Positions 4,615 to 19,121 of a stretch of 24,564 nt of DNA are shown here, piece by piece. Below the pieces are notes generated by a model that had not been told where the DNA came from, did not search any database, and saw only the letters and a list, made by a program, of their open reading frames with translations. This DNA comes from a virus: the IMG/VR virus record IMGVR_UViG_3300017786_005342, positions 1-24,564 of that record; one strand, given 5' to 3'. The translations under genes were made by a program, and so were the position numbers. Each line of letters starts with the position of its first letter. The stretch's first letter is position 1.

Positions 4615-5895
4615 ATGAATAAACCAGTATACGCAATAAGTTGTCCATTTGATACCTATTCTGGGTATGGTGCAAGAAGTAGAGATTACATAAGATCTAT
4701 TTTAGAATTGGATAAATATGAAGTTAAATTAATTCCTCAACGTTGGGGAGAAACAGCATGGGGGTTCTGTGAAGACTTTCCAGAATGGAAACATTTATAT
4801 GATTTAGTAGTTCCTGGCGGTAAATTAAATTCTCAACCTGATGTATGGACTCAAATTACTATCCCTAACGAATTTACTCCTATAGGTAAATATAATATTG
4901 GCGTTACTGCTGGGGTTGAATCAACAATATGTGCTCAGGATTGGATTGAAGGTTTAAATAGATTTGATGTTACTTTTGTTTCTTCCCACCATTCTAAAAA
5001 AGTATTTGAAACTACTCAATATGAAAAAAAAGATAGTAGAACTAATCAAGTTGTAGATGTTGTTAAACTTAATAAACCTGTAGAAGTTTTATTTGAAGGG
5101 ATGGATTTAGATATATATAAAAAATTATCTCCTAACCAAATAACGGATATTGATTTAAGTCCTATTAAAGAAGAATTTTGTTTTTTATTTGTTGGACATT
5201 GGATGAATGGTAGTCTGGGACATGATAGAAAAAATGTAGGGCTTTTAGTAAAAGCCTTCCTAGAAACATTTAAAAACAAACCAGGAAAAAAACCTGCTTT
5301 AATTTTAAAAACATCAATTGGGTCCAATTCTTATTCTTCTAGGGAAGAAATACTTAAACGAATTAATAAGATTAAATCTACTCTTGCTTCTAAAAATTTA
5401 CCTAATATTTACGTTTTAAGTGGGGAATTTAGTGATAAAGAAATGAACCAATTATATAACCACCCTAAGGTAAAATCTATGATATCTCTTACAAAAGGTG
5501 AAGGATATGGTAGACCATTGCTTGAATTTACAGCTACTGGAAAACCAATTATAGCAAGTGGATGGTCTGGTCCTGTTGATTTCCTCCAACCAGATAAATC
5601 ATTTTTACTCCCAGGCAAATTGGATAAAGTAGATAAAAGTGCTGCTAATAAATGGTTGCTCGAAACAAGCCAATGGTTTTTCCCAGAAGAAGGAGTTGTT
5701 GGGGGTGTAATGAAAGATATGGTAAAACATTATAAAAAATATTTAGCGGGGGGTAAAAAACAAAAATATTATTGTAAAAATAATTTTTCTTGGGAAAAAA
5801 TGACAGAATTATTAGGTACTTATTTTAGTAAATATGTGCCCGATTTTCCTAAACAAGTAGAATTAGAAATACCAACTTTAGAAAAAATAGACTAA
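4615..5895 (+). CDS. GT-B glycosyltransferase, GT4-like (second)
   Basis: A 426-aa protein of the GT4 type. The N-terminal part has an SGYGARSRDYI loop (about residues 16-26), typical of the acceptor domain. The C-terminal domain starts near FLFVGHWMN (about 190) and has the E-x7-E pair at Glu296-Glu304 (EGYGRPLLE), followed by GKPIIASGWSGPVDFL, a frequent GT4 ending in which the Gly-Pro loop follows the donor site. The substrate is unknown. It lies in tandem with another GT4-like enzyme 3 nt upstream, and its stop overlaps the next start by one base (TAATG). The two are too different to be recent duplicates. A cytosolic role in glycan building or protein glycosylation is inferred. Confidence 0.85.
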   Translation: MNKPVYAISCPFDTYSGYGARSRDYIRSILELDKYEVKLIPQRWGETAWGFCEDFPEWKHLYDLVVPGGKLNSQPDVWTQITIPNEFTPIGKYNIGVTAGVESTICAQDWIEGLNRFDVTFVSSHHSKKVFETTQYEKKDSRTNQVVDVVKLNKPVEVLFEGMDLDIYKKLSPNQITDIDLSPIKEEFCFLFVGHWMNGSLGHDRKNVGLLVKAFLETFKNKPGKKPALILKTSIGSNSYSSREEILKRINKIKSTLASKNLPNIYVLSGEFSDKEMNQLYNHPKVKSMISLTKGEGYGRPLLEFTATGKPIIASGWSGPVDFLQPDKSFLLPGKLDKVDKSAANKWLLETSQWFFPEEGVVGGVMKDMVKHYKKYLAGGKKQKYYCKNNFSWEKMTELLGTYFSKYVPDFPKQVELEIPTLEKID

Positions 5896-6314
5896 TGAAT
5901 TTTGATGATTTAATAGAATGTACTAGATGTGGTAGTGATGCATGCTACAAACAAGAAATTAATCAAGGAATTACTCTGGAAATGTGTATGGGTTGTGGTT
6001 TTCAACATAATTCAATTATGACTAGTGGAAGTCAGTTTCTCCAAGAACAAATGGAAATACTACCGGAGTTATATAAAGCTTTACTTGATGAAGAAGAAGA
6101 AAGTGAAAAATTATGGATGCCCACTACTATTAATATCCAAGATAAAGGAATGATATTTGCAGAAGGCACTAGTAGAGACAATTGGGCATGGGCAGCGGTA
6201 AAAGCTACTTTAAATGAAGAAAAAGAATATAAAACGGATATGTCTACAGCTAAACATTTTCCAGAAAGGGATTTTATTGGAGCTTTGAGCCATATTGGTG
6301 TATTACCAGAATAA
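5895..6314 (+). CDS. Zinc-ribbon phage protein, unknown function
   Basis: A 139-aa acidic protein with an N-terminal zinc ribbon: Cys9 and Cys12 (CTRC) pair with Cys31 and Cys34 (CMGC), and Cys17 is an extra cysteine. After an acidic linker (DEEEESEK) there is a C-terminal part with WMPTTINIQDKG and a Trp/Ala-rich helix (NWAWAAVKA), which looks like a compact domain rather than disordered tail. It has no sugar-enzyme motif, although it sits inside the glycan island. It starts within the TAATG junction of the upstream glycosyltransferase and ends 9 nt before the epimerase. It may be a phage gene carried along with the island, or a partner of a glycosyltransferase. Confidence 0.7.
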   Translation: MNFDDLIECTRCGSDACYKQEINQGITLEMCMGCGFQHNSIMTSGSQFLQEQMEILPELYKALLDEEEESEKLWMPTTINIQDKGMIFAEGTSRDNWAWAAVKATLNEEKEYKTDMSTAKHFPERDFIGALSHIGVLPE

Positions 6315-6323
6315 AATAAAAAA

Positions 6324-7202
6324 ATGAAAATATTAGTAACAGGAGGTGCAGGTTTCATAGGCACCAATTTAATTAAAAGATTACTATCAGAAGGCCATGA
6401 AGTTACATCACTTGATAATTATTCTATTGGTGTAAAAGAAAACCATATAGAAGGATGTAATTATATAGAGGAAGATATAAATGAAATACTAGATCTTTTT
6501 GTATTAGAAACTTATATTGAAGAATATAATTTTGATCTTATATATCATCTTGCTGCACTTTCAAGAATACAACCTTCATTTGATGAACCTACTAAAACAT
6601 TTGATGCTAATGTTAGGGGTACTCAAAATGTTATTGAATTTGCTAGAAAATCTAATGCTAAAGTAGTGTATGCAGGTTCATCTTCAAGATGGCATGACCC
6701 ATCACAATCCCCTTATGCTGCTTATAAACATTTAGGGGAAGAAGTTTGTAAATTATATAAAAAAACTTATAAAATGGATATAGAAATAGCTCGATTCTAT
6801 AATGTTTATGGCCCCAATGAAGTATTAGAAGGTGATTGGGCAGCAGTTATTGGAAAGTGGAGACGTCAAGTTAGAGATGGTGAGTTAATTACTATAGTAG
6901 GGGATGGAGAACAGAGAAGAGACTTTACCCATGTAGAAGATATTTGCGATGCTCTATGGAGAATAGGAATAAATAATATTAAACATGAAGATGCCTGGGA
7001 GTTAGGAACAGGTATGAATTATTCTATAAATGAAGTTTATCAAATGTTTAAAGAAAGATTTGGAACAGAATTTACCCAAATCCCAGATCAACCTGGGAAT
7101 TACAGAAAGACATTAAGGGAAAATGATGATACCATAGAAAAGTTAGGATGGGTCCCTAGTGATAAATTAAGGGATTATATTTTTAGTCTAAGTAAAGATT
7201 AA
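6324..7202 (+). CDS. NAD-dependent sugar epimerase/dehydratase (extended SDR, GalE-like)
   Basis: A 292-aa extended short-chain dehydrogenase/reductase acting on a nucleotide sugar. The NAD-binding loop is G7-x-x-G10-x-x-G13 at the N-terminus, Asp31 follows strand 2, HLAAL is at about 75-79, and the catalytic YxxxK is Tyr131 to Lys135 with the serine cluster AGSSS just before it. The C-terminal part has RFYNVYGP and the RDFTHVED segment typical of UDP-sugar 4-epimerases. The exact reaction (4-epimerisation or 4,6-dehydration) cannot be told apart by eye. The lack of the PseB-type TDKA motif separates it from the dehydratase at 10447. It probably supplies an isomerised UDP- or dTDP-sugar to the neighbouring transferases. 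The leader is A-rich with no Shine-Dalgarno sequence. Confidence 0.88.
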   Translation: MKILVTGGAGFIGTNLIKRLLSEGHEVTSLDNYSIGVKENHIEGCNYIEEDINEILDLFVLETYIEEYNFDLIYHLAALSRIQPSFDEPTKTFDANVRGTQNVIEFARKSNAKVVYAGSSSRWHDPSQSPYAAYKHLGEEVCKLYKKTYKMDIEIARFYNVYGPNEVLEGDWAAVIGKWRRQVRDGELITIVGDGEQRRDFTHVEDICDALWRIGINNIKHEDAWELGTGMNYSINEVYQMFKERFGTEFTQIPDQPGNYRKTLRENDDTIEKLGWVPSDKLRDYIFSLSKD

Positions 7203-7204
7203 AC

Positions 7205-7828
7205 ATGAAAATAAGTTACGCAATAACAGTCTGTAATGAGAAATTAGAAGTCAAACGTTTAGTTGACTTTTTACTTGCTAATAAACGTAAACAAGATGAA
7301 ATAGTTGTTCTTTATGATCAAAAAAATGGTGATGAAGCAGTTATTAATATGCTTACTAAATTAAATAAATTACCTAACTTCCAAGTATGGAGAGGATTTT
7401 TTGAAGGACATTTTGCTGATTGGAAAAATAAACTTACAGAATATTGTTCAGGAGACTATATCTTTCAAATAGATGCTGATGAAATACCTACTAAGATGTT
7501 AGTTGATAATGTTCCAAATATTATAGAAAATAATCCTCATAATGATGTTTATTTAGTTCCTAGAGTAAATACTGTAGAAGGTCTAACTCAAGAACATATT
7601 ACTAAATGGAGATGGAATATTGATGATGAAGGAAGAGTCAACTGGCCTGATTACCAATGGAGGATATGGAAGAATAAACCAGAGATAAAATGGATAAACA
7701 AAGTACATGAAAGGTTAGAAGGTTTTAAAACCTATGCCACACTCCCGGCTTACCATGATTTAGCTTTACAGCATCCTAAAACTATTGACAGACAAGAAAA
7801 ACAAAACGCATATTACGACACATTATGA
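7205..7828 (+). CDS. GT2-family glycosyltransferase (short, WaaE-like)
   Basis: A 207-aa GT-A fold enzyme. It opens with the ISYAITVCNE strand-loop typical of GT2 and has the metal/nucleotide-binding DxD as Asp90-Ala-Asp92 (QIDADE). It ends with WINKVHERLEG, like the W-x-x-x-VHE region of LPS core transferases of the WaaE/KdtX type. It starts 2 nt after the epimerase stop, and its stop overlaps the next ATG (ATGA), so it is translationally coupled to the methyltransferase-GT32 fusion. Its substrate is not determinable. At 207 aa it is short for GT2 but contains the whole catalytic domain. Confidence 0.85.
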   Translation: MKISYAITVCNEKLEVKRLVDFLLANKRKQDEIVVLYDQKNGDEAVINMLTKLNKLPNFQVWRGFFEGHFADWKNKLTEYCSGDYIFQIDADEIPTKMLVDNVPNIIENNPHNDVYLVPRVNTVEGLTQEHITKWRWNIDDEGRVNWPDYQWRIWKNKPEIKWINKVHERLEGFKTYATLPAYHDLALQHPKTIDRQEKQNAYYDTL

Positions 7829-9324
7829 AAAGTATAGAAGAACTTTTAAAACCCTACAATATATTTAAATCCAAAAAAGGAATAGGGGATAAAAATAGGG
7901 ATCTTAGAGAGTTTGACGGAGGTTATATAGTTACAGATTATGAATTAAAAAACGCAACATCTTTGTATACTTATGGGGTTGGAGAAGACATATCAGCAGA
8001 TAAGGAATTTTATGAGCTAACTAAAAAACCATGTTATCTTTATGACCATACTATTAATGGTTCCGTTGTACATAACTCAGGGCTACCACTAAAATACAAA
8101 CAGGAAGGATTAGGGTTTACCCCAAAATGTAATGATTTTTTAAAACATTATGAAGAAAATAATGAAACTGGGGAAGTAATTTTAAAAATAGATGTTGAGG
8201 GTGCTGAGTATGATTATTTATCTAAAGTTGATCTAAAAAAATTAGAAGAAAAAGTAGTAAGTTTATTAATTGAATTCCACCATCTAGAAAACCCACAAGT
8301 AAGAAAAGCTTTTAAAGTTTTAATGAATAAACTAGATAAATATTTTGTTCTCCATCATATTCATGCTAACAATTATGGGAAAATAGTAGAAAATATACCA
8401 ACTGTTCCTGAATTATCTTTTATAAATAGAAGACACATTAAAAAAATACAAGAAGAAAATATTAAATATCCCATACGAGGTCTAGATTATCCCAATACTA
8501 AACAGTATGATGATATTTGTTTAGATTTTACTACAGGTAAATTACAATCCTATAAAGTTAAAATAGATAAAATACCTAATATATTTCATTTTGTTTATGG
8601 TTTAAAAGAACAAACTGAAGAATTTTCTTTAATTTATTATTTATCGCTTAAAAGCTGTATAGAAGTAAACAAACCTGAAAAAATACATTTTTATTATTAT
8701 CATGAACCCTTTGGAAAATACTGGGATAAAATAAAACCCTATTTAACCCTAATTAGGGTAAAACCCCCTACAGAAATATTTGGTATTCCCATCACTCATT
8801 ATGCCCATCAAGCAGATATCATTAGATTACAAGCACTTATAGAATATGGGGGAGTATATGCTGATATTGATTCTATTTTTATTAACCCCTACCCAGATCA
8901 TGTATTTGAAAAGAATTTTGTTATGGGGCAACAAGGAAATGAGGGATTATGTAATGCATTAATGATGTCATCACCAAAATCTTATTTTTCCCAAAAATGG
9001 CTAGCAGATCATAAACATTGTTTTAAAGGTACCCCTCCAGGAAGTGACGGGTGGTGTACCCATTCAGTGTATTACCCCCAACATTTAAGTCAACAAATTC
9101 CTGAACATATACACATTGAGGGTCCAAGTTCTTTTTTTCATTATTTATACCATCCTACCCCTTTAAAACAACTATTTGAAGAAAATAACAAATTACCAAA
9201 AAATATTTACTCTTTACATTTATGGGAAACAGCAAGTTGGGATTTATATTTAAATAAAATAGATGAAAAATATATAAAAGAAAATAATACTACATTTACT
9301 AACCTAGTAGAAAATTTAATATGA
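7825..9324 (+). CDS. FkbM-like methyltransferase fused to GT32 glycosyltransferase
   Basis: A two-domain, 499-aa protein. Residues about 25-210 resemble an FkbM/Methyltransf_21-type SAM-dependent methyltransferase: a DGGY segment at 31-34, the SAM-site strand LYTYGVGEDIS (48-57) and LKIDVEGAEYD (120-130). Residues about 249-480 form a GT32 (Gly_transf_sug) domain. It begins IPNIFHFVYG, has the helix HQADIIRLQALIEYGG (328-343) and the DxD as Asp347-Ile-Asp349. GT32 includes OCH1-like and capsular alpha-transferases. The fusion would let one protein add a sugar and O-methylate it or its neighbour, a common way to cap a chain. It overlaps both neighbours by 4 nt. Confidence 0.82.
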   Translation: MKSIEELLKPYNIFKSKKGIGDKNRDLREFDGGYIVTDYELKNATSLYTYGVGEDISADKEFYELTKKPCYLYDHTINGSVVHNSGLPLKYKQEGLGFTPKCNDFLKHYEENNETGEVILKIDVEGAEYDYLSKVDLKKLEEKVVSLLIEFHHLENPQVRKAFKVLMNKLDKYFVLHHIHANNYGKIVENIPTVPELSFINRRHIKKIQEENIKYPIRGLDYPNTKQYDDICLDFTTGKLQSYKVKIDKIPNIFHFVYGLKEQTEEFSLIYYLSLKSCIEVNKPEKIHFYYYHEPFGKYWDKIKPYLTLIRVKPPTEIFGIPITHYAHQADIIRLQALIEYGGVYADIDSIFINPYPDHVFEKNFVMGQQGNEGLCNALMMSSPKSYFSQKWLADHKHCFKGTPPGSDGWCTHSVYYPQHLSQQIPEHIHIEGPSSFFHYLYHPTPLKQLFEENNKLPKNIYSLHLWETASWDLYLNKIDEKYIKENNTTFTNLVENLI

Positions 9325-10463
9325 ATCTAGTAATATTTGCTTCGGATGCTAAAGCTTTAAGTTCTTTAAATAGCTTAATATCCACAGCTAGTAGTATGGG
9401 AATTAAGGTGTTTGCAATGGTGACCCAATCTACCAAATTAAAACACCCCACTACCCAACAACAAAACTTTCAGATAATATCTAATGTAGACAAAAAACCT
9501 GTTATTAAAAGTAATAGTTTAGGGGTTTATTTACCTTTTAAACCTGATTGGTTAATAGTAAGCAGGGAGAGATGGGATCCTGAATTAAACATTATTAAAG
9601 AATTTAAATTAAAATTTGGGTGTAAAGTTGGATTAGTTGAACCTAATTCTCATATTTTAAATAATGCCGAAACTAGATTAGAGGTTTATTCTAAAAATAG
9701 ATTTATAAATTTAATTGATAAGTTTTTCATTCATTCTTCACATGCTAAATACCAACAACAATTAGCAGGATTTACGGGAAATATGGTGGTAACAGGCAAC
9801 CCAAAATATGATCTAAATTTAAAACCCAACCCCAAAACCCTTACTCAGCTAAATAAATTATATAATATTGACCCAAATAAAAAACAAGTATTATTATTTA
9901 GTTTAGTCAATCAACATAGAAATGATATCAATGCTATATTCAAAAATATAGTAACATCAAAACCTGAAAACCAATATTTTTATAAACCCTATCCTGGAGA
10001 ACCTTTTCTTTCAAAATATAGTAAGGATTTTTCCCCAAAATTTTTTTTAGATAACTGTACCCCCATTCTAGAAGAAAATCATATTTGGGGAATGTTTGAA
10101 ATTTGTAATAAACATATAGGGTGCATGTCTTCTATTACTCATGCAACTTTACTTAGTAGAAGTGAATATCAAGATGTTAGTTTAGAATTAAATCTCCCTA
10201 AAAAATATTTAGATTTTTCAAATGTGTTCCAAGATGGAGGTCCTGGGTTAGAAAATAATAAGGCAATGTGGATGCGTAGTTTTGGTTTTACTAGCGAATC
10301 TCAATTACGTAATTTACTTCCAATTCAATATAAAAAGGAAATTAAAAAATCAAATGATAAAGTTTGGAATAACTTGGATAACCCAGAAATTTTACTTAAA
10401 TTATTCGATGATTACAATGATGGAAACGCTTCAAAACGTATTATAAATGAGTTACAAAAATAA
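9321..10463 (+). CDS. Putative GT-B-like surface carbohydrate transferase
   Basis: A 380-aa protein of likely GT-B fold. An N-terminal Rossmann-like half starts MNLVIFASDAKAL. A linker region carries the VTGNPKYD motif (about residues 154-161), seen in UDP-GlcNAc 2-epimerase-like and polysialyltransferase/CDP-glycerol transferase-like proteins. The C-terminal half has FYKPYPGEP (about 218-226) and a DGGPGLE loop (about 307-313). No clear E-x7-E or DxD donor motif is visible. It could instead be a nucleotide-sugar hydrolase or epimerase of the same fold, but its N-terminus lacks the start pattern I expect in PseG. Its last 17 nt overlap the start of PseB, which links it to the nonulosonic acid block. 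Confidence 0.5.
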   Translation: MNLVIFASDAKALSSLNSLISTASSMGIKVFAMVTQSTKLKHPTTQQQNFQIISNVDKKPVIKSNSLGVYLPFKPDWLIVSRERWDPELNIIKEFKLKFGCKVGLVEPNSHILNNAETRLEVYSKNRFINLIDKFFIHSSHAKYQQQLAGFTGNMVVTGNPKYDLNLKPNPKTLTQLNKLYNIDPNKKQVLLFSLVNQHRNDINAIFKNIVTSKPENQYFYKPYPGEPFLSKYSKDFSPKFFLDNCTPILEENHIWGMFEICNKHIGCMSSITHATLLSRSEYQDVSLELNLPKKYLDFSNVFQDGGPGLENNKAMWMRSFGFTSESQLRNLLPIQYKKEIKKSNDKVWNNLDNPEILLKLFDDYNDGNASKRIINELQK

Positions 10464-11424
10464 GAAATTTTTTATTACAGGTGGAACAGGTTCTTTAGGT
10501 CAAGCTTTAATTAAAAGACTTAAATCTCAAGGAGCTAAAATTATTATTTATTCTAGAGATGAGGGAAAACAAGCTCTAATTTTTGGTGATTCCAATATAA
10601 CCTGCATTATTGGTGATATTAGAGATTATAATAAACTAAACACCTCATTAAAAATCCATAAACCAGATTACATTATTCATACTGCTGCTTTAAAGCGTAT
10701 TGATGATATGGAATTTTATCCTGATGAATGTATTAAAACTAATATTGAAGGGTCAGATAATGTAGCAAGAGCAGCTTTAGAAAATGATATTAAAAAATGT
10801 ATTTTAGTATCAACTGATAAAGCTTGTAAACCTGTTAATGTATATGGTTCTTCTAAATTCATAGCTGAAAGGTTATTTACTAATTATGATTATAATTCCC
10901 CTAGTACCATATTTGCTTCTGTTCGTTATGGTAATGTAATTGCTTCTAGGGGATCTTTTGTTCCCTTATTTATGGATTGGATTAAAACCAATCAGACTAT
11001 AAGAGTAACTTCTGAAGAAATGACCCGTTTCTTATTTACTTTAGATAATGCCGTTGATGCTGTATTAGGAGCATTGAACAATGCTATGGGTGGGGAAGTA
11101 TTTGTACCTCAAATAGATTCTTATACTTTACCTACATGCATTAAAGCATTAGAGAAAATTACAGGGAAATCAGCTACAACCGAAGTTACAGGGTTACGCC
11201 CCGGAGAAAAGTTACATGAAGATATGTTAGCTGAAACAGAATTACCTTTTACTTACCAAGTTACAGATATTAATTTACTTCAAATTAGACCCCAATATAC
11301 TCGCAGAACCCATTCAGATTCATATTTTAAAAAATACAATGGACCCCATTTTAACTCAGAATTATGGGTTAAAAAAGATATTGATAATTTAGTTGAATTA
11401 ATAAATAATGGGCTTAAGTGTTAA
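10447..11424 (+). CDS. pseB: UDP-GlcNAc 4,6-dehydratase, PseB type
   Basis: First enzyme of pseudaminic acid synthesis, turning UDP-GlcNAc into a UDP-4-keto-6-deoxy sugar with C5 inversion. The 325-aa SDR has the G12-x-x-G15-x-x-G18 NAD(P) loop and an ALKRIDDMEFYP segment at about 81-92, matching the conserved PseB/FlaA1 substrate loop. The catalytic set is Asp124-Lys125 (STDKA), Tyr133 and Lys137. In FlaA1 these are Asp132, Lys133, Tyr141 and Lys145, so the spacing is identical. RPGEKLHEDM near residue 253 is also diagnostic. The ATG lies 17 nt inside the previous gene, and the stop overlaps the PseC ATG by one base (TAATG). Retaining dehydratases such as PglF are membrane-anchored and longer, so PseB fits better. 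Confidence 0.9.
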   Translation: MSYKNKKFFITGGTGSLGQALIKRLKSQGAKIIIYSRDEGKQALIFGDSNITCIIGDIRDYNKLNTSLKIHKPDYIIHTAALKRIDDMEFYPDECIKTNIEGSDNVARAALENDIKKCILVSTDKACKPVNVYGSSKFIAERLFTNYDYNSPSTIFASVRYGNVIASRGSFVPLFMDWIKTNQTIRVTSEEMTRFLFTLDNAVDAVLGALNNAMGGEVFVPQIDSYTLPTCIKALEKITGKSATTEVTGLRPGEKLHEDMLAETELPFTYQVTDINLLQIRPQYTRRTHSDSYFKKYNGPHFNSELWVKKDIDNLVELINNGLKC

Positions 11425-12455
11425 TGAAACTATTTGAAACTAAAATATCATCTTACGATACAAACGTAAAAATCTCTCCTGTTATCCAAAGTGGAGAATT
11501 AGGGTTTGGTCCAAATGTTCCTAAATTTGAAGAAGAATTTGCCTCTTACAGTAATAAAAAATATAATACTGCTTTAAATTCTTGTTCCTCAGCTGGGTTT
11601 ATTATATTTGCCTATTTAAAAAAGAAATATGGTAAATGTGATGTTTATACACCTAGCATTGGGTTTACTTCTATGACTTGGGCAGCAAAACATCATGGAC
11701 ACAATTTAATATTTGTTGATGTAGATGATTCTATGTTAATGAGTGTTGAATCCTATAAAAACAATAGAAGATGGAGATGTGAACGTTATAGTGATGGAGG
11801 AATAAAACCAGTTATAATGCCTGTTTTATATGGGGGGGTATCAACTATTCCTAATTTTATTAAATCAATAGAAGAAGATGGTTATAATGAATTTATAGTA
11901 CTAGACTCAGCCCACTGTGTTACTCCAACTATGAAATCAGATGTTTCATTATTTAGTTTCCACCCTTATAAACCCATAGCTGCCTCAGATGGTGGTATGT
12001 TATCAACAGATAGTGAAGAGATAGATGAATACACCCGTTCATATAGAAATTTTGGTAGACAAAATACTAATGATGGCTATCAAATAGCAAATGAAGGTTT
12101 TAAATTTTATATGAATAATTTAAATGCTACAATTGCTTTAACCCAGTTAGGAGCATATAAAAACAATTGCGATAATCGTAAAGCAGTATGGGATAAAATC
12201 CAATCAATGGAATGGGATGGTAAATTAGCTGAACATGATAATTTATCGTCTTACTACGTTGGTACTTTAATAGCTAAAAACTCAACTATAGCCAAAAAAT
12301 ATAGAGAAAAATATTGTGAAGCTAGACTATATCCTCCACTACATGAACAACCTTATTATAGGGAATGTGGAAGAGGGGATTTATCTAATACTACAAAATT
12401 ATACAAATTGCTAGTTAATTTACCTTTATATGAGAAAAACATTTATAATAGCTGA
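11424..12455 (+). CDS. pseC: PLP-dependent sugar aminotransferase, PseC/DegT family
   Basis: Second pathway step: transfer of an amino group from glutamate to the 4-keto sugar made by PseB. The 343-aa DegT/DnrJ/EryC1-type enzyme has the internal-aldimine lysine Lys183 in SFHPYKPIAASDGG and Asp161 in LDSAH, which contacts the PLP pyridine nitrogen. NSCSSAGF at 52-59 forms the phosphate cup. I chose ATG 11424 (TAATG overlap with pseB) over the GTG at 11418 because such coupling is the rule in this operon. The sequence diverges from textbook PseC: a WRCER stretch at about 117-121 and a short C-terminus. The product stereochemistry is therefore inferred from its neighbour. Its 3' end overlaps the pseI start by 26 nt. 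Confidence 0.82.
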   Translation: MKLFETKISSYDTNVKISPVIQSGELGFGPNVPKFEEEFASYSNKKYNTALNSCSSAGFIIFAYLKKKYGKCDVYTPSIGFTSMTWAAKHHGHNLIFVDVDDSMLMSVESYKNNRRWRCERYSDGGIKPVIMPVLYGGVSTIPNFIKSIEEDGYNEFIVLDSAHCVTPTMKSDVSLFSFHPYKPIAASDGGMLSTDSEEIDEYTRSYRNFGRQNTNDGYQIANEGFKFYMNNLNATIALTQLGAYKNNCDNRKAVWDKIQSMEWDGKLAEHDNLSSYYVGTLIAKNSTIAKKYREKYCEARLYPPLHEQPYYRECGRGDLSNTTKLYKLLVNLPLYEKNIYNS

Positions 12456-13452
12456 AGCGGGTGCAAACCACAATAAAGATTGGAATACCGCTATACAATT
12501 AATAGATACTGCCTATGAGTCTGGGGCAGATGCTGTAAAATTTCAAACATACTCCTCTAATACTTTATATGCTTCCAACACCCCAGATTTTGCGGGTTAT
12601 AAAAATATTAATAAACTTATAAAAGATATTGAATTACCTAGAGAATGGCAAAAAGATTTAAAACAATATTGTGATGAAAAAGGTATAGAGTTTATGTCTA
12701 CTCCATTTGATGAACAAGCAGTAGATGAACTTGTATCTCTTGGGATAAAACGTTTAAAAATTGCTGGGTTTGAAGCAACTGATCCTCGTTTTGTAGAAGT
12801 AGTGGCCTCAACAGGATTACCTATTATAATGTCAGCTGGAATTGGATTTGACTTTAAGTATTGGGGGAAATTTTATAATATATTTAAAAAATATAATAAC
12901 CATGTTACACTTTTACATTGTAATAATGCTTACCCAACTCCTATAGAAGATGTATGTTTAGATTCAATGAATAGTCTAGCTAATCTTATTAATGTATCAG
13001 AAATAGGTTTTTCAGATCACACTATGTCTACTTTAATACCATCATTAGCTGTAGTTAAAGGGGCTACTGTAATTGAAAAACATTTTACTTTAGATAGACA
13101 AATGAAGGGGCCAGATCATCCATTTGCATTAGAACCTAATGAAATAAAAGAAATGATTCAATTTATACGTGAAGCAGAAAAATCAAGGGGGTTTAAGGTT
13201 GGTTATACTACCTCAGAACAATCATTTAGTAAAGCAAGACGTTCAGTTGTTAGTAAAATTGATTTAAAAAAAGGAGACATTTTAACTAAAGAGAATATTA
13301 CTACCAAACGCCCTTTTTTGGATAATTCAATTCCTGCTATAGATTATAATGATATTTTAGGTCAAATTTTAAAAAATAACATCAAAGCAGATACCCCTTT
13401 AACTAAAAATTTAATTTCATATTATGACCCTACTTTACTTAGGACCCCCTAG
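12430..13452 (+). CDS. pseI: Pseudaminic acid synthase, PseI-like (NeuB family, with SAF domain)
   Basis: Condenses a free 6-deoxy diamino sugar with phosphoenolpyruvate to a nine-carbon nonulosonic acid. The TIM-barrel domain has Glu9 and NHN (13-15), Lys37 (ADAVK), Lys110 and Glu115 in KIAGFEATD. The FEA signature matches Campylobacter PseI rather than the SG(E/D)-type of NeuB. The two Mn-ligand histidines are present at His197 (FSDHT) and His218 (EKHFT), exactly 21 residues apart as in N. meningitidis NeuB (215/236). GPDH is at 227-230. A C-terminal antifreeze-like SAF domain from about residue 270 (KGDILTKENITTKRP) supplies the arginine that reaches into the partner's active site. All key residues are intact, so it should be active. 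It overlaps its neighbours by 26 and 29 nt. Confidence 0.87.
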   Translation: MRKTFIIAEAGANHNKDWNTAIQLIDTAYESGADAVKFQTYSSNTLYASNTPDFAGYKNINKLIKDIELPREWQKDLKQYCDEKGIEFMSTPFDEQAVDELVSLGIKRLKIAGFEATDPRFVEVVASTGLPIIMSAGIGFDFKYWGKFYNIFKKYNNHVTLLHCNNAYPTPIEDVCLDSMNSLANLINVSEIGFSDHTMSTLIPSLAVVKGATVIEKHFTLDRQMKGPDHPFALEPNEIKEMIQFIREAEKSRGFKVGYTTSEQSFSKARRSVVSKIDLKKGDILTKENITTKRPFLDNSIPAIDYNDILGQILKNNIKADTPLTKNLISYYDPTLLRTP

Positions 13453-13951
13453 CAACATATTAGAATATTTAAAATTTTTTGGTAGTGTAGATACAATAAC
13501 TGAAAAGTTAAATATTGATCAAGTTAAAAAGTATGATTGGATTATTAGCTATGGTTACAGACATATAATTAAACAAGATATTATAGATGCAGCTTGTAAC
13601 CCTATTATAAATTTACATATTTCTTATTTACCTTGGAATAGAGGAGCTTCCCCTAACTATTTTAGTTGGAAACATAATACCCCTAAAGGAGTTACCATTC
13701 ATAAAATAGATTCAGGGATCGATACAGGAGACATTTATATCCAAAAACAAGTTGAATTTACAGGGGGGGAAACATTAGCCGAATCTTATAATAAACTAAA
13801 AATAGAAATTGAAGCTTTATTTATATATAGCTTTGATTCCATAATAAAAAATCGTATATTACCTTATAAACAGATAGGAAAGGGTACAACTAATTATGTA
13901 AAAGATATTCCTAATAATATAGATTGGGGCACTAAAATAAGTAAAATATGA
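13424..13951 (+). CDS. N10-formyl-THF-dependent sugar N-formyltransferase domain
   Basis: A 175-aa protein of the formyltransferase (Fmt/GART-like) superfamily. The catalytic set is visible as Asn63 and His65 (INLHISYLP) and Asp100 (SGIDTGDIY), with spacing close to E. coli Fmt (Asn106, His108, Asp144). The WNRG and PNYFSW segments also fit. Sugar N-formyltransferases act on amino groups of UDP/dTDP-amino sugars. The position inside the Pse block, where PseH acetyltransferase is expected and not found, points to formylation of the 4-amino group made by PseC, which becomes N-7 of the nonulosonic acid. The protein is short, with an abbreviated N-terminal Rossmann half and no C-terminal OB domain. 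A glycinamide ribotide formyltransferase is less likely in this context. Confidence 0.78.
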   Translation: MTLLYLGPPSNILEYLKFFGSVDTITEKLNIDQVKKYDWIISYGYRHIIKQDIIDAACNPIINLHISYLPWNRGASPNYFSWKHNTPKGVTIHKIDSGIDTGDIYIQKQVEFTGGETLAESYNKLKIEIEALFIYSFDSIIKNRILPYKQIGKGTTNYVKDIPNNIDWGTKISKI

Positions 13952-14133
13952 CAGACTTAGAAATTATCGATAAAGTAGAACAAGTACGTAAAGGTAATAA
14001 TGTAAATTGGATGGATTTAGTTAGATTAGCTTTTGAAATTGCTCCCGATAGAGCAAGACCTATCTTTAAAAAGATAAATGAGAGTGATGGGGAAATAAGT
14101 AAATTATTAGATCAATTAGCAAATAATGGGTAA
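13948..14133 (+). CDS. Small helical protein in the nonulosonic acid block (61 aa)
   Basis: A predicted two- or three-helix protein of 61 residues with NNVNWMDLVRLAFEIAPDRA in the middle (residues 17-36) and a heptad-like C-terminal helix (EISKLLDQLAN). I recall similar short proteins next to sialic-acid-type gene clusters in marine bacteria, but I know of no assigned activity. It overlaps the formyltransferase stop (ATGA) and the cytidylyltransferase start by 8 nt, so it is coupled to both. A regulatory or scaffolding subunit for one of these enzymes is a reasonable guess. It has no metal-binding residues or membrane segment. Confidence 0.72.
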   Translation: MTDLEIIDKVEQVRKGNNVNWMDLVRLAFEIAPDRARPIFKKINESDGEISKLLDQLANNG

Positions 14134-14806
14134 AAATATTAAAGATATTTGTTTGTTGGTGCAAGCACGAATGGGGTCTCAAAGAGTTCCAAAAAAAATG
14201 TTAAAACCTTTTGCAGGGACAACTTTAACACATCTCTTATTTGATAAGCTTACAAATTCATCCATTATACCTAAAGAAAATATTATATTTTCCGCCCACG
14301 AACAAGAACTAGTAAACATAGCAAATAACTATGATGTTAAGGTATTTAATCGTAGTTTGGCTTCTGCTAGGGAAGATAGTAATATGCAACTCATTTATGA
14401 ATGGCATAATAAAATTCCATATAAATACTGTGTTTTAGTTAGTGCCTGTAATCCGTTATTAAAAATAGAAACTATAGATAAATTTTTTACTGAATTTCTT
14501 GAATCAAGTAAGGAAGGTGCTTTTGCAGTATTCCCAAAAAAAACCTACTATTGGGATCAACAGGGTAAACCAATTACAGATTGGAAAGGACTTAGAATTA
14601 TGAACACTAAATATATTGATCCTGTATATGAGGCAGCCCATTGTTTATATGCATCTAGATTAGATATTATTAAAGATGGCTACTGGATGGATATTAACTA
14701 TCCCCCACAACCTCATCTTGTAGAAATGAATGAATTTGAAGCTTTTGATATAGATTATCCATGGCAATTTGAAGTAGGAGAAACATTATATAAACAATAT
14801 GCATAA
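14126..14806 (+). CDS. CMP-nonulosonate cytidylyltransferase, SpsF/NeuA-like (copy 1)
   Basis: A 226-aa GT-A-like nucleotidyltransferase that would activate the nonulosonic acid with CTP to the CMP-sugar, the step PseF does in the Pse pathway. The N-terminal CTP loop reads LLVQARMGSQRVPKKMLKPF, the SpsF-type version of the NeuA loop. ACNPLLKIETI (about 112-122) replaces the usual RPTSPLR strand. The metal-binding Asp pair is in AFDIDYP near residue 210, as in CMP-sialic acid synthetases. A second, clearly related gene lies at 15839. It overlaps the small protein upstream by 8 nt and the NeuB-like gene downstream by 8 nt. Confidence 0.8.
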   Translation: MGKNIKDICLLVQARMGSQRVPKKMLKPFAGTTLTHLLFDKLTNSSIIPKENIIFSAHEQELVNIANNYDVKVFNRSLASAREDSNMQLIYEWHNKIPYKYCVLVSACNPLLKIETIDKFFTEFLESSKEGAFAVFPKKTYYWDQQGKPITDWKGLRIMNTKYIDPVYEAAHCLYASRLDIIKDGYWMDINYPPQPHLVEMNEFEAFDIDYPWQFEVGETLYKQYA

Positions 14807-15842
14807 TATAGAATTAACATTACCATCTGGTAAAAAAAGATTTATTGGTCCTAATGAACCAATATTCATTGCCGCAGAAATAGGAGTAACTTGTAATTAC
14901 GAAATACATCGAGCTAAAACACTAATTGACGTAGCATCAGAAGCAGGTGCAGATGCAGTAAAACTTGCATTTCATTTCCCAGATGAACTTTTAAGCGATC
15001 ATTCTGTAACATACAAGTACCCCACAGTTCGAGGGGAAGAAGAAGAAAACATGTATGAGATGTTTAACTATCTAAGATTTAGTTATGATGAATGGGAGGA
15101 ACTAAAAGCGTATGCCGATTCTAAGGATCTTCTTATGTTTTGTTCGCTTGCAGGGGGGTTTGAAGGAATAGAATATGCTGAAAAATTAGAATTACCAATG
15201 CACAAATTAGGTGCTTGGGACCTTTTAGATGAACGTCAATGGAAAAGATTAAAAGGATCAGGTAAACCCTTAATTATTGATGTAGGTACAATTACAGAGG
15301 AAGAAATGGGGTGGATGATGGATAAAATAAAAGGACTAGATGTTGTGTTACTCCATGAATATCATTCCCATAATTACAATGAAATGAATATTAGGTCAAT
15401 AAAATATATAAGGGATAAATTTAATGTACTAACAGGATTTTCATCCCCTGATACTTATGATGTAAATGATTTTATGTCTATAGCTCAAGGTGCTGTTGTA
15501 CTTGAAAAAAGAGTAACAACAGATAGATCATCCCAAGGCCACCACCATATCATTAGTAAAGAACCAGAAGAATTTAAAAAGTATGTACAATTAGTTCGCC
15601 AAGCTGAAGTATCACTAGGTGAGTATAAGATCCAACCAACAAAAAAAGACTTAGAGGAAAGAGGAAGATTTTTTAAAAGAATTGTTGCATCTAAACCAAT
15701 AAAAAAGGGTGAAATGTTTACCGAAGATAACTTAGCCTGTAGAAGACCCAGTACAGAGGGTATATCATCTCGATATTACTTTTCTGTTGTTGGTCGTATA
15801 GCAGACAAAGATTACGAAATAAATCAACCAATAACTGAATGA
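14799..15842 (+). CDS. Divergent NeuB-fold protein lacking both metal-ligand histidines
   Basis: A 347-aa NeuB-family protein with TIM barrel and C-terminal SAF domain (KKGEMFTEDNLACRRPSTEG, about 298-317). It keeps Glu27 (AAEIG), Lys55 (ADAVK), Lys136 and the arginines of the SAF domain. The two catalytic-metal histidines are gone: the FSDHT motif reads FSSPDT with Pro217 aligned to the first His, and EKHFT reads EKRVT with Arg238 at the second. The separation is still 21 residues. The NHN motif is TCN, the active-site Glu is Asp141, and GPDH reads QGHHH (246-250). The frame is intact and tightly coupled (8-nt and 4-nt overlaps), so it is under selection, not a pseudogene. It may use a different metal site (His248-250), another substrate, or be non-catalytic. 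Confidence 0.82.
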   Translation: MHNIELTLPSGKKRFIGPNEPIFIAAEIGVTCNYEIHRAKTLIDVASEAGADAVKLAFHFPDELLSDHSVTYKYPTVRGEEEENMYEMFNYLRFSYDEWEELKAYADSKDLLMFCSLAGGFEGIEYAEKLELPMHKLGAWDLLDERQWKRLKGSGKPLIIDVGTITEEEMGWMMDKIKGLDVVLLHEYHSHNYNEMNIRSIKYIRDKFNVLTGFSSPDTYDVNDFMSIAQGAVVLEKRVTTDRSSQGHHHIISKEPEEFKKYVQLVRQAEVSLGEYKIQPTKKDLEERGRFFKRIVASKPIKKGEMFTEDNLACRRPSTEGISSRYYFSVVGRIADKDYEINQPITE

Positions 15843-16549
15843 AATTATTAAATGAAATATTATTTATTGTACAAGCAAGACTTAACTCATCTCGATTGCC
15901 TGGGAAAATGCTTAAACCTTTCTCCAATACAACATTATTTGATATTACACTAGAAAAAGTTAATAAAAGTATTATACCTCCTAGTTCTTTTTATGTATCA
16001 ATTAATGAAAAGGAACTTATTGAGGCAGCAAATAAACATAAAGTAAACATATATTTAAGGAGTGACCAAAGTATACGTAATGATGATATAAACCCCTTTA
16101 GTGTAAAGGAATTATTTGAATGGAGAGAATTACCTTTTAAATATTTTATTATTATGAATGCATGTAATCCACTAGTAAAGATAGAAACTATAAACAATTT
16201 TGTAAAAGAATTTCAAAAAATTAAGGGAGGATTATTATCAGTTAAAAAACATAAACACTGGTTTTACACCCCTGAAGGTAAGTTTGTCCAACACAGTACA
16301 GGTGGAAATAGGGCACGTATGACATTTAATAGCAAATACGTACAACCTTTATACTCAAATGGACCTATTAAAGGTGGATTAATATCAGATTTAAAAAATA
16401 ACATTTATTGTTGGGATCAACAGAGTAAACCTAATGTATTTATATACCCTGATGATGAATATACTGACATAGACTATCAACATGAATTTGATATTTCAGA
16501 ACAACTTTATATAAAAAGAAATGAAATTATTAGCAATAGGACCATCTGA
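15839..16549 (+). CDS. Cytidylyltransferase, SpsF/NeuA-like (copy 2)
   Basis: A 236-aa paralogue of the gene at 14126. It has the same N-terminal loop type (FIVQARLNSSRLPGKMLKPF), the same central strand (ACNPLVKIETI) and the C-terminal Asp pair in YTDIDYQ, so the catalytic framework is kept. It carries an insertion with basic and aromatic residues (HKHWFYTPEGKF, about 137-148) and a QHSTGGN loop. Its start overlaps the divergent NeuB-like gene by 4 nt (ATGA), pairing those two as a second synthase/activator module. It may activate a second acid sugar with CTP. Other nucleotidyltransferases with this fold (for example KdsB) have different start motifs. Confidence 0.75.
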   Translation: MKLLNEILFIVQARLNSSRLPGKMLKPFSNTTLFDITLEKVNKSIIPPSSFYVSINEKELIEAANKHKVNIYLRSDQSIRNDDINPFSVKELFEWRELPFKYFIIMNACNPLVKIETINNFVKEFQKIKGGLLSVKKHKHWFYTPEGKFVQHSTGGNRARMTFNSKYVQPLYSNGPIKGGLISDLKNNIYCWDQQSKPNVFIYPDDEYTDIDYQHEFDISEQLYIKRNEIISNRTI

Positions 16550-17300
16550 TTCAACTATACAGTTAGGAGAAAAACTTAAAAACCTAAACCCTGATATAAA
16601 AACTATTGGGTTGCATAGAGCATTTCCTTATTTAAAACAAAACCATAATATTGATTTAGACTATTGGACATGGGGAGATCCTAACTCAACACAAATGGGT
16701 TTTGATTATATTAAAAATAATCCTAATGAACCTATTCCTCACATAATTTTACCTAAATGGTCTAAAACTATATCTACATTTAATAATCTATCTGGAACTA
16801 CTCAACTAAATAGATATCCCAAAAGAATTAGAGAATATGAGGATACTCTTCAAAAATTTGAAAAAAAAGGTAAAGTTACATTTATTGAAAATGCTTTGCC
16901 TACAAAAGGAATTAAAGATACACAATTAATTACAAACCCCAAATTAAGGTTTTCAGATCAATTTACAATTTTTGGCACAGTACCATTTGATGGTATTCAT
17001 GCGGAATCAAACTGGGCTTTAGAAAATAAATTTACATCCTTAATACTTCCTACGTGTTACTATTTGGGAGCAAAGGAAGTATATTGTATTGGGTTCGATA
17101 ATAGAGGTACCGGAATAAATAGAACAATACCTCTTCTTAATAATAACCAAAACCACATCCAAAAGTTTTTATCTAAATACCCAAAGTGGGTTAATGATTG
17201 GAAGCCTTATCATAATATGAACATATATAGTATTACTCCTGATAAATTTTCCCCCATCAACCAAATAATGGAATATAAATCAATAAAAGAATTAAAATGA
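16521..17300 (+). CDS. Possible GT42/DUF115-like transferase
   Basis: A 259-aa protein that starts with a Rossmann-like strand-loop (LLAIGPSDST, residues 3-12). In its C-terminal half it has LILPTCYYLGAKEVYCIGFD (about 173-192). A strand of the form hydrophobic-LGxKE(I/V)Y-x-x-G-x-D is typical of GT42 sialyltransferases (CST-I/II) and of the DUF115/MptE-like domain found in Maf flagellin glycosyltransferases, both of which handle nonulosonic acids. That match and the place directly after the CMP-sugar genes (29-nt overlap) suggest a transferase that uses the CMP-nonulosonate. The catalytic His of GT42 is not obvious, so the call is tentative. It is coupled to the SGNH-like gene by a 4-nt overlap. 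Confidence 0.42.
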   Translation: MKLLAIGPSDSTIQLGEKLKNLNPDIKTIGLHRAFPYLKQNHNIDLDYWTWGDPNSTQMGFDYIKNNPNEPIPHIILPKWSKTISTFNNLSGTTQLNRYPKRIREYEDTLQKFEKKGKVTFIENALPTKGIKDTQLITNPKLRFSDQFTIFGTVPFDGIHAESNWALENKFTSLILPTCYYLGAKEVYCIGFDNRGTGINRTIPLLNNNQNHIQKFLSKYPKWVNDWKPYHNMNIYSITPDKFSPINQIMEYKSIKELK

Positions 17301-17917
17301 AAGATGTAGAACATGTAATACATACTGTAGGGGATAGCCATGCTTTTCAACATGGATGTATTGAACCAATTCCTTCAAGGATAGTACAACATCATTTAGG
17401 TCCTGTATTATGTTATAGTTTTGGAAAAGAAAAACTAAAAAGATGTGATATTCGTAATTTTAATATTAAAAATGGGGATAGTATTATATTTTGTTTAGGA
17501 GAAATAGATTGTAGATGTCATATCCATAAACATATAAATGATAAAGTTAGTTATCAAAACATTATAGATTACATTGTTGATAATTATTTTGAAGCTATTA
17601 ATTTAAATATAGAAACATCTCAAATAAACCTTAAAAACATTTGTGTTTATAATGTTGTCCCACCAATCCAAATTGATAATACCCCAGAAGATCCTACTTT
17701 CCCCTTTTTAGGTAGTGATGAAGAACGTAAGGAGTATGTTTTATATTTTAATAAAAAACTAAAAGAAAACTGTAAAAAATATAGATATGTTTTTTTTGAT
17801 ATCTACAACCATTACACTGATGAAAATGGGTTTTTAATTAAAGATTTAAGTGATGGAAATGTACACCTTAAGGATAAATCTTATCTGAGAGATTTTATAT
17901 TAAAAAATAATATATAA
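17297..17917 (+). CDS. SGNH/GDSL-hydrolase-like protein
   Basis: A 206-aa protein with the marks of the SGNH esterase fold: block I is Gly12-Asp-Ser14-His (GDSH, nucleophile Ser14), GEIDCR at 68-73 stands where block III is expected, and Asp186-Gly-Asn-Val-His190 (DGNVHL) near the C-terminus supplies the Asp and His of block V, with one residue more than the usual D-x-x-H. SGNH enzymes in glycan clusters add or remove O-acetyl groups on sugars. Here it could edit acetylation of the nonulosonic acid or its glycan, but acetyltransferase activity is equally possible. No signal peptide is present, so it should act in the cytosol. It is followed by a 13-nt gap, the largest in this part of the island. 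Confidence 0.65.
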   Translation: MKDVEHVIHTVGDSHAFQHGCIEPIPSRIVQHHLGPVLCYSFGKEKLKRCDIRNFNIKNGDSIIFCLGEIDCRCHIHKHINDKVSYQNIIDYIVDNYFEAINLNIETSQINLKNICVYNVVPPIQIDNTPEDPTFPFLGSDEERKEYVLYFNKKLKENCKKYRYVFFDIYNHYTDENGFLIKDLSDGNVHLKDKSYLRDFILKNNI

Positions 17918-17930
17918 AAGCAAATAAAAT

Positions 17931-19121
17931 ATGGAAAAAATAACATTTTGCATACCAAGTAAGTCTAACTTGCGTTACCTAAAAACTTGTATTCCGTCTA
18001 TTAGAAAAAATGCTCATAGAAAGGATCATGATATTATTATTTTTGTTGACTCAGATGATGATGGTACAGTTGAATGGTTAGAACAAGTTAAAGAAAATTA
18101 CAATTTAACTTATTATGTAAACCCCCATTTAGGTAAAAAATTATTTGGAATTGGCAAGGCATATGATTATTGTATAGAGCATTCAACAACGGATATATTC
18201 ATGATCTTTCATGCTGATATGATGTTGGGTATTGACGCTGATTTAAACGCATTTAACCACTTAAAAAGCAAAACAGTTGTATGTTCAACACGGGTTGAAC
18301 CCCCAATCCATCCTAATGGTGGTGAGAAAATATTACAACACTTTGGGATGTGGCCTGAAGAATTTAAATCAAAAGAATTTGATGAGTTTGTTGAATTACA
18401 ACTTAATAATGATCAAGTTACTGAGGGCATATTTGCCCCCTGGATGATGTATAAAGAAGAATTTTTAGCCATGGGTGGACATGATCCTAGATTACATTCA
18501 GCTAGGGAAGACTCTGATGTGTTTAATCGTTTATTATTAGGTGGATTTGAGTTTAAACAACCATGGAATAGTTTAGTTTATCATTTAACAGGTAGGGGAG
18601 GTCAATTTCAACATGGCAAAATAACCCAAGATGAAACACAAAAAAGTGATGAATGGAGAAGATTAATGAATAATTCAACTAGAGAGTTTATTAGAAAATG
18701 GAAATCCACAGTTAAACATACTCCTTTAATGAAACCCATAGTATCCCCAATTTATGATATTGGCATTCAAATAATAAATAGTAATGAAAATTTATTAGAA
18801 GCACTGGAGCCTTGGGGACATAATATTTATATTGACTTAGATTATGGTGATTATATAGATAAAGAACAACCTAATACTGAAGATAATTTAATACTAAAGC
18901 TTTATCCTATTGATGAAAAACCTAAAAACGATATAGTTATAAGAATAGATGGAAAAACATTTACCCAACAAGATTTTTTATATCTGCAAGAAATGGGTAA
19001 TATTATTTTTAAAAGTGGCGAAATAGGAAAATTTAAAGTAGGTAATTTAGTTATAAAGATTAACAAAATTTCTGAAATTCAATCTAATTTAATTCAATGT
19101 TTAGTAGATTATGAATCTTAA
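17931..19121 (+). CDS. GT2-family glycosyltransferase with extra C-terminal domain
   Basis: A 396-aa protein. The N-terminal GT-A domain starts ITFCIPSKSNL and has the nucleotide-binding acidic run at 40-44 (DSDDD). The DxD-equivalent strand is FHADMML (93-99), with His94 and Asp96 in place of a full DxD. GGHDPRLHSAREDSD (about 182-196) is the acceptor-side ED motif. Residues about 270-396 form a separate domain beginning near PIYDIGIQI, rich in acidic residues and Ile/Tyr strands, with no family I recognise. It may bind an acceptor or target protein. It is the last glycosyltransferase of the island. Its leader is A/T-rich with no Shine-Dalgarno sequence, and the next gene starts 1 nt after its stop. 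Confidence 0.82.
   Translation: MEKITFCIPSKSNLRYLKTCIPSIRKNAHRKDHDIIIFVDSDDDGTVEWLEQVKENYNLTYYVNPHLGKKLFGIGKAYDYCIEHSTTDIFMIFHADMMLGIDADLNAFNHLKSKTVVCSTRVEPPIHPNGGEKILQHFGMWPEEFKSKEFDEFVELQLNNDQVTEGIFAPWMMYKEEFLAMGGHDPRLHSAREDSDVFNRLLLGGFEFKQPWNSLVYHLTGRGGQFQHGKITQDETQKSDEWRRLMNNSTREFIRKWKSTVKHTPLMKPIVSPIYDIGIQIINSNENLLEALEPWGHNIYIDLDYGDYIDKEQPNTEDNLILKLYPIDEKPKNDIVIRIDGKTFTQQDFLYLQEMGNIIFKSGEIGKFKVGNLVIKINKISEIQSNLIQCLVDYES

Follow-up and report, generated by a model that had tools for sequence, protein, structure and literature searches.

A nonulosonic acid gene set without PseG in an exchangeable cassette of a T4-like phage

The synthesis of nonulosonic acids is regarded as a cellular trait. 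The bacterial pseudaminic acid pathway consists of PseB, PseC, PseH or PseJ, PseG, PseI and PseF, and when the 4-amino sugar is N-formylated before the phosphoenolpyruvate (PEP) step, the result is 7-N-formyl pseudaminic acid. In mycobacteriophages, phage glycosyltransferases decorate the capsid and the tail tube (Freeman et al. 2023, as cited in PMC12619734); the passage of PMC12619734 on this system mentions no nonulosonic acid pathway, which sets it apart from the locus described here. In the open-access literature we found no paper that joins pseudaminic acid, auxiliary metabolic genes and phages, although such work may have been published elsewhere.

Here, we describe a phage-borne variant of the bacterial pathway that lacks PseG and lies inside an exchangeable cassette. 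The material was the virus record IMGVR_UViG_3300017786_005342 of IMG/VR, 24,564 bases long, which was analysed from letter 1 to 24,564 and is referred to as the window. Protein families were assigned by means of Pfam, NCBIfam (with its equivalog cut-offs), PHROGs and PDB profile searches. PHROGs contained no family for NeuB, the cytidylyltransferases or the protein encoded at 16521-17300.

Pathway genes between 10447 and 16549

All genes of the window discussed below are located on the + strand. Those of the cluster at 10447-16549 overlap their neighbours, as an earlier note on this DNA had reported; they are intact, the overlaps measure 4-29 bases, and they encode, in this order, a PseB-like, a PseC-like and a NeuB/PseI-like protein, an N-formyltransferase, a 61-aa protein, a cytidylyltransferase, a second NeuB-family protein, and a second cytidylyltransferase. 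The genes named in the earlier note were all recovered, but it had missed the second NeuB gene and the 61-aa gene. The GC content is uniform across the window (0.27-0.33), and scans for promoters and terminators gave results at chance level only.

The first gene (10447-11424) encodes a PseB-like UDP-GlcNAc 4,6-dehydratase/5-epimerase, with PseB as top NCBIfam match (270 bits versus an equivalog cut-off of 408) and a match to PDB entry 2gn4 at E 9e-62; alignment to 2gn4 shows that the catalytic set D124, K125, Y133 and K137 is present. For the PseC-like aminotransferase of the DegT family (11418-12455), which has K185 as PLP lysine, PseC ranked first in NCBIfam with 118 bits (cut-off 424) and LegC second with 79. 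The NeuB/PseI-like nonulosonic acid synthase (12430-13452; Pfam NeuB, E 5e-73), referred to as NeuB1, has retained the metal ligands H197 and H218 and has an intact SAF domain. It matched NeuB_NnaB with 304 bits (cut-off 400), followed by PseI with 260 bits (cut-off 340), and the best match of its family profile in the PDB was the pseudaminic acid synthase 8h2c. Since NeuB outscores PseI, and all scores remain under the cut-offs, legionaminic-like or other isomers are possible products.

The fourth gene (13424-13951) encodes a PseJ-like sugar N-formyltransferase with an intact N63/H65/D100 set. Its best PDB matches were two chains named 'formyltransferase PseJ' (6ci2 and 6ci4), which aligned over nearly the full length with E 1e-32, and the formylation domain of linear gramicidin synthase matches it as closely as these chains do. 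The kinship to the PseJ chains strengthens the pseudaminic acid reading and, by homology only, the protein is predicted to act as an N-acyltransferase on a 4-amino sugar. An IMG/VR pattern scan with this formyltransferase returned no relatives; such patterns reach close relatives only. The signature residues of the PseB, PseC and formyltransferase proteins are thus where the earlier note had placed them. The profile searches that it had suggested as a check confirm the PseB, PseC, NeuB/PseI and formyltransferase families, but none of the NCBIfam scores reaches its equivalog cut-off, so that the families are sure and the exact substrates are not.

The formyltransferase gene is followed by that of a 61-aa helper protein (13948-14133) and then by the gene of a PseF/SpsF-like cytidylyltransferase (14126-14806; CTP_transf_3, E 1.7e-15), with PseF as top NCBIfam match at 44 bits. 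Judged from its sequence, this protein probably carries out the CMP activation step. The QARxxSxRxPxK loop and the DID motif are found in this enzyme and in the second cytidylyltransferase (15839-16549; CTP_transf_3, E 1e-11) alike. The second copy is nearer to the cytidylyltransferases of the other of the two cassette types described below, with 181 bits to a member of that type (L006) versus 143 bits to one of the window's own type (L003).

The second NeuB-family protein (14799-15842; Pfam NeuB, E 5.6e-37) is encoded between the two cytidylyltransferase genes. In this protein SDH has changed to SSP and EKH to EKR, and both histidines, the metal ligands of the NeuB family, are replaced, making activity as a canonical synthase doubtful. 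It occupies a very long branch in the NeuB tree, and a pattern scan of IMG/VR, able to reach close relatives only, found no relatives. Three consecutive histidines (GHHH) are present at the site that is usually GPDH.

PseG and the candidate transferases

A search for PseG (TIGR03590) came back empty for the window and for 11 records of related phages (100-140 kb in some cases), which may be incomplete, and PseG was also not found in the phages immuto and Mel-JY01. The same search gave a match in five of the eight cellular genomes with comparable genes. The pathway set, which had been called complete-looking, is therefore not complete. The UDP-release step may be supplied by a PseG of the host or by an unrecognised phage enzyme.

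The gene at 9321-10463 encodes a GT-B protein. Wherever an immuto-like locus extends far enough, this gene is located upstream of pseB, and in most cases immediately so. A search found it neither in immuto nor in G016, a T4-like contig that is less closely related and has the other pathway genes. Its AlphaFold2 model (pLDDT 89) gave VIA Z scores of about 18.5 to both the CDP-glycerol polymerase TagF and UDP-GlcNAc 2-epimerase, and in Foldseek 2-epimerases ranked first. Because the fold ties TagF with UDP-GlcNAc 2-epimerase, both a CMP-sugar transferase and a UDP-sugar hydrolase are conceivable, and from its model the protein may be the missing UDP-sugar hydrolase. Sequence-profile searches of the PDB gave nothing useful for the GT-B family or for two families of transferase candidates.

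The other candidate is the protein encoded at 16521-17300, which has no Pfam family. Its homologue in G016 (locus L102), located between pseC and neuB, matched an MptE-like domain with E 5e-4, below the cut-off; this domain is related to that of Maf. The weak structural model of the window protein (pLDDT 58) had the sialyltransferase CST-II as top Foldseek match with E 9e-3, together with another sialyltransferase, and VIA gave a Z score of 8.0 to MAF 5mu5, tied with unrelated folds. The assignment as a GT42/Maf-type transferase of the nonulosonic acid is suggestive only. An IMG/VR pattern scan with the single transferase sequence returned no relatives, at a reach limited to close ones. The gene that follows (17297-17917) encodes a GDSL-like hydrolase (Pfam E 2e-4, below cut-off), possibly a tailoring enzyme.

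Elsewhere, in the 484-kb genome of an uncultured jumbo phage (LR756508, L113), four genes of the GT29 sialyltransferase family lie near neuB, at 8247-13068. The GT29 matches are well above the cut-off, and we count them as indirect support for the candidate transferase at 16521-17300.

Frame genes, phage relatives and cassette exchange

The flanks of the cassette resemble a locus of the isolate Flavobacterium phage immuto (NC_055915). Shared between them is a frame that in immuto consists of a PDDEXK gene, gp182, two glycosyltransferases, gp179 and a GT2 gene on one side, and a GT2 and an HNH gene on the other. In the window, this frame includes two GT4-type glycosyltransferases, at 3172-4611 (Glycos_transf_1, E 5.6e-9; 54% to gp181) and 4615-5895 (Pfam GT1 below cut-off; 52% to gp180), and a small conserved protein at 5895-6314 (39% to gp179), which has no Pfam family above cut-off. 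The exchangeable part is bordered on the left by a GT2 glycosyltransferase at 7205-7828 (69% to gp178) and on the right by another at 17931-19121 (Glycos_transf_2, E 1e-10; 43% to gp169). A nucleotide-sugar epimerase/dehydratase of the SDR type (6324-7202; Pfam Epimerase, E 8e-51) is 45% identical to gp170, which occupies a different place in the immuto locus, and the gene at 7825-9324 combines an FkbM-type methyltransferase with a DXD glycosyltransferase domain (Methyltransf_21 and Gly_transf_sug, both above cut-off). The interior of the immuto locus differs from that of the window, for it contains a different aminosugar cassette with aminotransferases, a pilin-glycosylation-type protein and an epimerase, and there is no NeuB anywhere in the immuto genome.

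Relatives of NeuB1 at 61-67% were found in 16 IMG/VR contigs, some of them near-identical, and all of these have the cassette in common. PseB, an aminotransferase, NeuB1 and a cytidylyltransferase occur together in nearly all loci compared. Two types of cassette can be distinguished. One combines PseB with a DegT aminotransferase (the window, L003, L004, L010, L013, L014, and L017), and the other PseB with an aminotransferase of ~425 aa (L005-L009, L015, L016, and L018), which was checked to be a class III enzyme in L005 and assigned by length and position in the other members. The second type also contains a Gfo/Idh/MocA oxidoreductase, as found in the two loci that were checked, L005 and L009. 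The acyltransferase slot is occupied either by a formyltransferase or by a GNAT acetyltransferase. A 60-aa domain without a Pfam family is fused to the formyltransferase in L003, L004, and L014, fused to the GNAT enzyme in L005, and free-standing behind the GNAT gene in L006, L011, and L018; in the window, the domain of this type is free-standing behind the formyltransferase gene. The alternation of formyltransferase and GNAT enzyme with a common 60-aa domain suggests that the acyl group added at this step can be exchanged. Genes for the aminotransferase, the N-acyltransferase and the transferase are exchanged between phages around a fixed frame.

The T4-type capsid gene gp23 is present in three of the four records longer than 100 kb, and in G016. 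For the gp23 of G007, the nearest isolate was Flavobacterium phage immuto with 58%, and Microcystis phage Mel-JY01 showed 50%. The genes of G016, which has a GC content of 0.40 over the part read, are arranged in the order nuclease, GT4, GT4, PseB, PseC, 16521-like, NeuB1, cytidylyltransferase. Directly after NeuB1, at 6772-8103 of locus L102, this contig encodes a metallo-beta-lactamase-fold protein, a possible sugar-modifying enzyme. In the NeuB tree, the phage NeuB1 sequences group into a single long-stemmed clade (100/100), which also includes two solitary alphaproteobacterial genes. These two neuB genes (L022 and L023) are the closest cellular relatives of phage NeuB1, and no other cassette genes are located beside them.

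NeuB is very rare in catalogued phages: among 50,697 records of an annotated phage collection, it was found in three, two of which are genuine. The third, a Moritella viscosa record filed in that collection (FPLJ01000048, L114), turned out to be a bacterial capsule contig and was rejected. One of the genuine records, cyanophage-like and with psbA (MH319754, L112, AG-345-L05), contains a set of cytidylyltransferase, aminotransferase and NeuB genes at 7116-9816.

The cassette is located on T4-like phage DNA. The family matches, the PseJ chains and the gp23 of the relatives support what had been proposed in this respect, namely a nonulosonic acid pathway with a formyltransferase on a T4-like phage.

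Proposed pathway, acceptor and alternatives

The genes, their families, the active-site residues, the location on a phage and the exchange of the cassette are observed; from them we infer the following sugar, transfer step, target and purpose. UDP-GlcNAc would be dehydrated and 5-epimerised by PseB, the product aminated by PseC, and the amino sugar N-formylated by the PseJ-like enzyme with 10-formyl-THF as donor. UDP would then be lost, a step for which there is no recognisable gene and which a PseG from the host or a phage enzyme that escaped recognition may carry out, after which NeuB/PseI would condense the hexose with PEP and the cytidylyltransferase would charge the product with CMP. The sugar is, judging by these enzyme families, probably of the 7-N-formylated pseudaminic acid type. 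Its transfer would take place in the cytoplasm, by the GT42/Maf-like protein (16521), the GT-B protein (9321) or both, and the conserved GT4 and GT2 enzymes probably place accompanying sugars. The chemistry genes lie at a fixed genomic site and are swapped between phages, like a serotype cassette, and this exchange around fixed phage genes makes a virion protein the most likely acceptor. We consider it likely, with moderate confidence, that an operon of this Immutovirus-related T4-like phage produces a CMP-nonulosonic acid, which would be passed on directly in the cytoplasm, most likely to a virion protein.

Virion decoration, host-surface remodelling and DNA modification had all been offered in the earlier note as purposes, and the first of these fits best. 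That the sugar would remodel the LPS, capsule or flagellin of the host during infection, for example by blocking superinfection or hiding the cell, is in line with the established knowledge that bacterial nonulosonic acids occur on flagella and surface polysaccharides, and that Maf-like transferases modify flagellin. However, genes for a flippase, polymerase, ligase or lipid-carrier transferase were not seen, and clear membrane segments are missing from all cassette proteins (the highest mean hydropathy over 19 residues was 1.56), which makes polysaccharide export by a flippase and polymerase unlikely. The exchange around fixed phage genes, moreover, speaks for decoration of a phage component, and we regard a host-surface target as unlikely. 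DNA-modifying phage glycosyltransferases are known, as discussed and cited in PMC12619734, and the sugars might accordingly serve in hypermodification against restriction, the glycosyltransferases acting on a modified base. Yet immuto and G013 carry QueC, QueD, QueE, FolE, and DpdA, a set for 7-deazaguanine DNA modification, which makes DNA a less likely target, and no DNA glycosyltransferase family was matched in the cassette, so that this role seems very unlikely.

The absence of PseG from all searched phage records would also be expected if only UDP-4-formamido-4,6-dideoxy-AltNAc were made and used directly, with NeuB and the cytidylyltransferase serving a separate or host-derived precursor, and two NeuB and two cytidylyltransferase genes do suggest two branches. 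The co-occurrence of PseB, aminotransferase, NeuB1 and cytidylyltransferase in nearly all compared loci argues against such a division, as does the fact that NeuB1 has kept its metal ligands and an intact SAF domain, and we think it quite unlikely. Finally, nonulosonic acid genes are usually bacterial, and host DNA might have been misassembled onto a phage contig, with junctions at about 3000 and 19100, as the earlier note had cautioned. The flanks, however, have the same order in many independent contigs and in the isolate immuto, the GC content is even, and NeuB1 falls into a long-stemmed clade made up mostly of phage sequences; a chimeric assembly was rejected on these grounds, its probability being negligible.

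Direct transfer of a CMP-nonulosonic acid to a virion protein remains the preferred reading. That related phages have differing sugar genes at one and the same site suggests a coating of exchangeable sugars, which these phages may apply to their own particles or to something else. As a tentative generalisation, in which we have limited confidence, T4-like aquatic phages might make nonulosonic acids, coat their virions with them and, by swapping genes at one site, generate particle serotypes comparable to the O-antigens of bacteria. With a phage-borne set of this kind, which is rare in catalogued phages but recurs in environmental contigs, a virus may supply its own sialic-acid-like coat, which would be relevant for adsorption, host range, superinfection and the immune recognition of phages. 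The exchange of genes around fixed glycosyltransferases offers a directly testable case of sugar-based antigenic variation in phages, for which immuto, as an isolate, provides a laboratory model with the same locus.

Compared with known systems, the protein at 16521-17300 may resemble the Maf flagellin glycosyltransferases and the GT42 enzyme CST-II in its predicted fold, and it shares their position beside pathway genes, but it is stand-alone and very divergent, its model is weak and its activity is a prediction. The formyltransferase shares with PseJ (6ci2, 6ci4) the domain and its N/H/D set, with a predicted substrate. With the bacterial pseudaminic acid pathway, the window has in common an operon encoding PseB-like, PseC-like, PseJ-like, PseI/NeuB-like and PseF-like enzymes. 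It differs from this pathway in its location on a phage, in the absence of PseG, in scores that stay under the equivalog cut-offs, and in the addition of a degenerate second NeuB and a second cytidylyltransferase.
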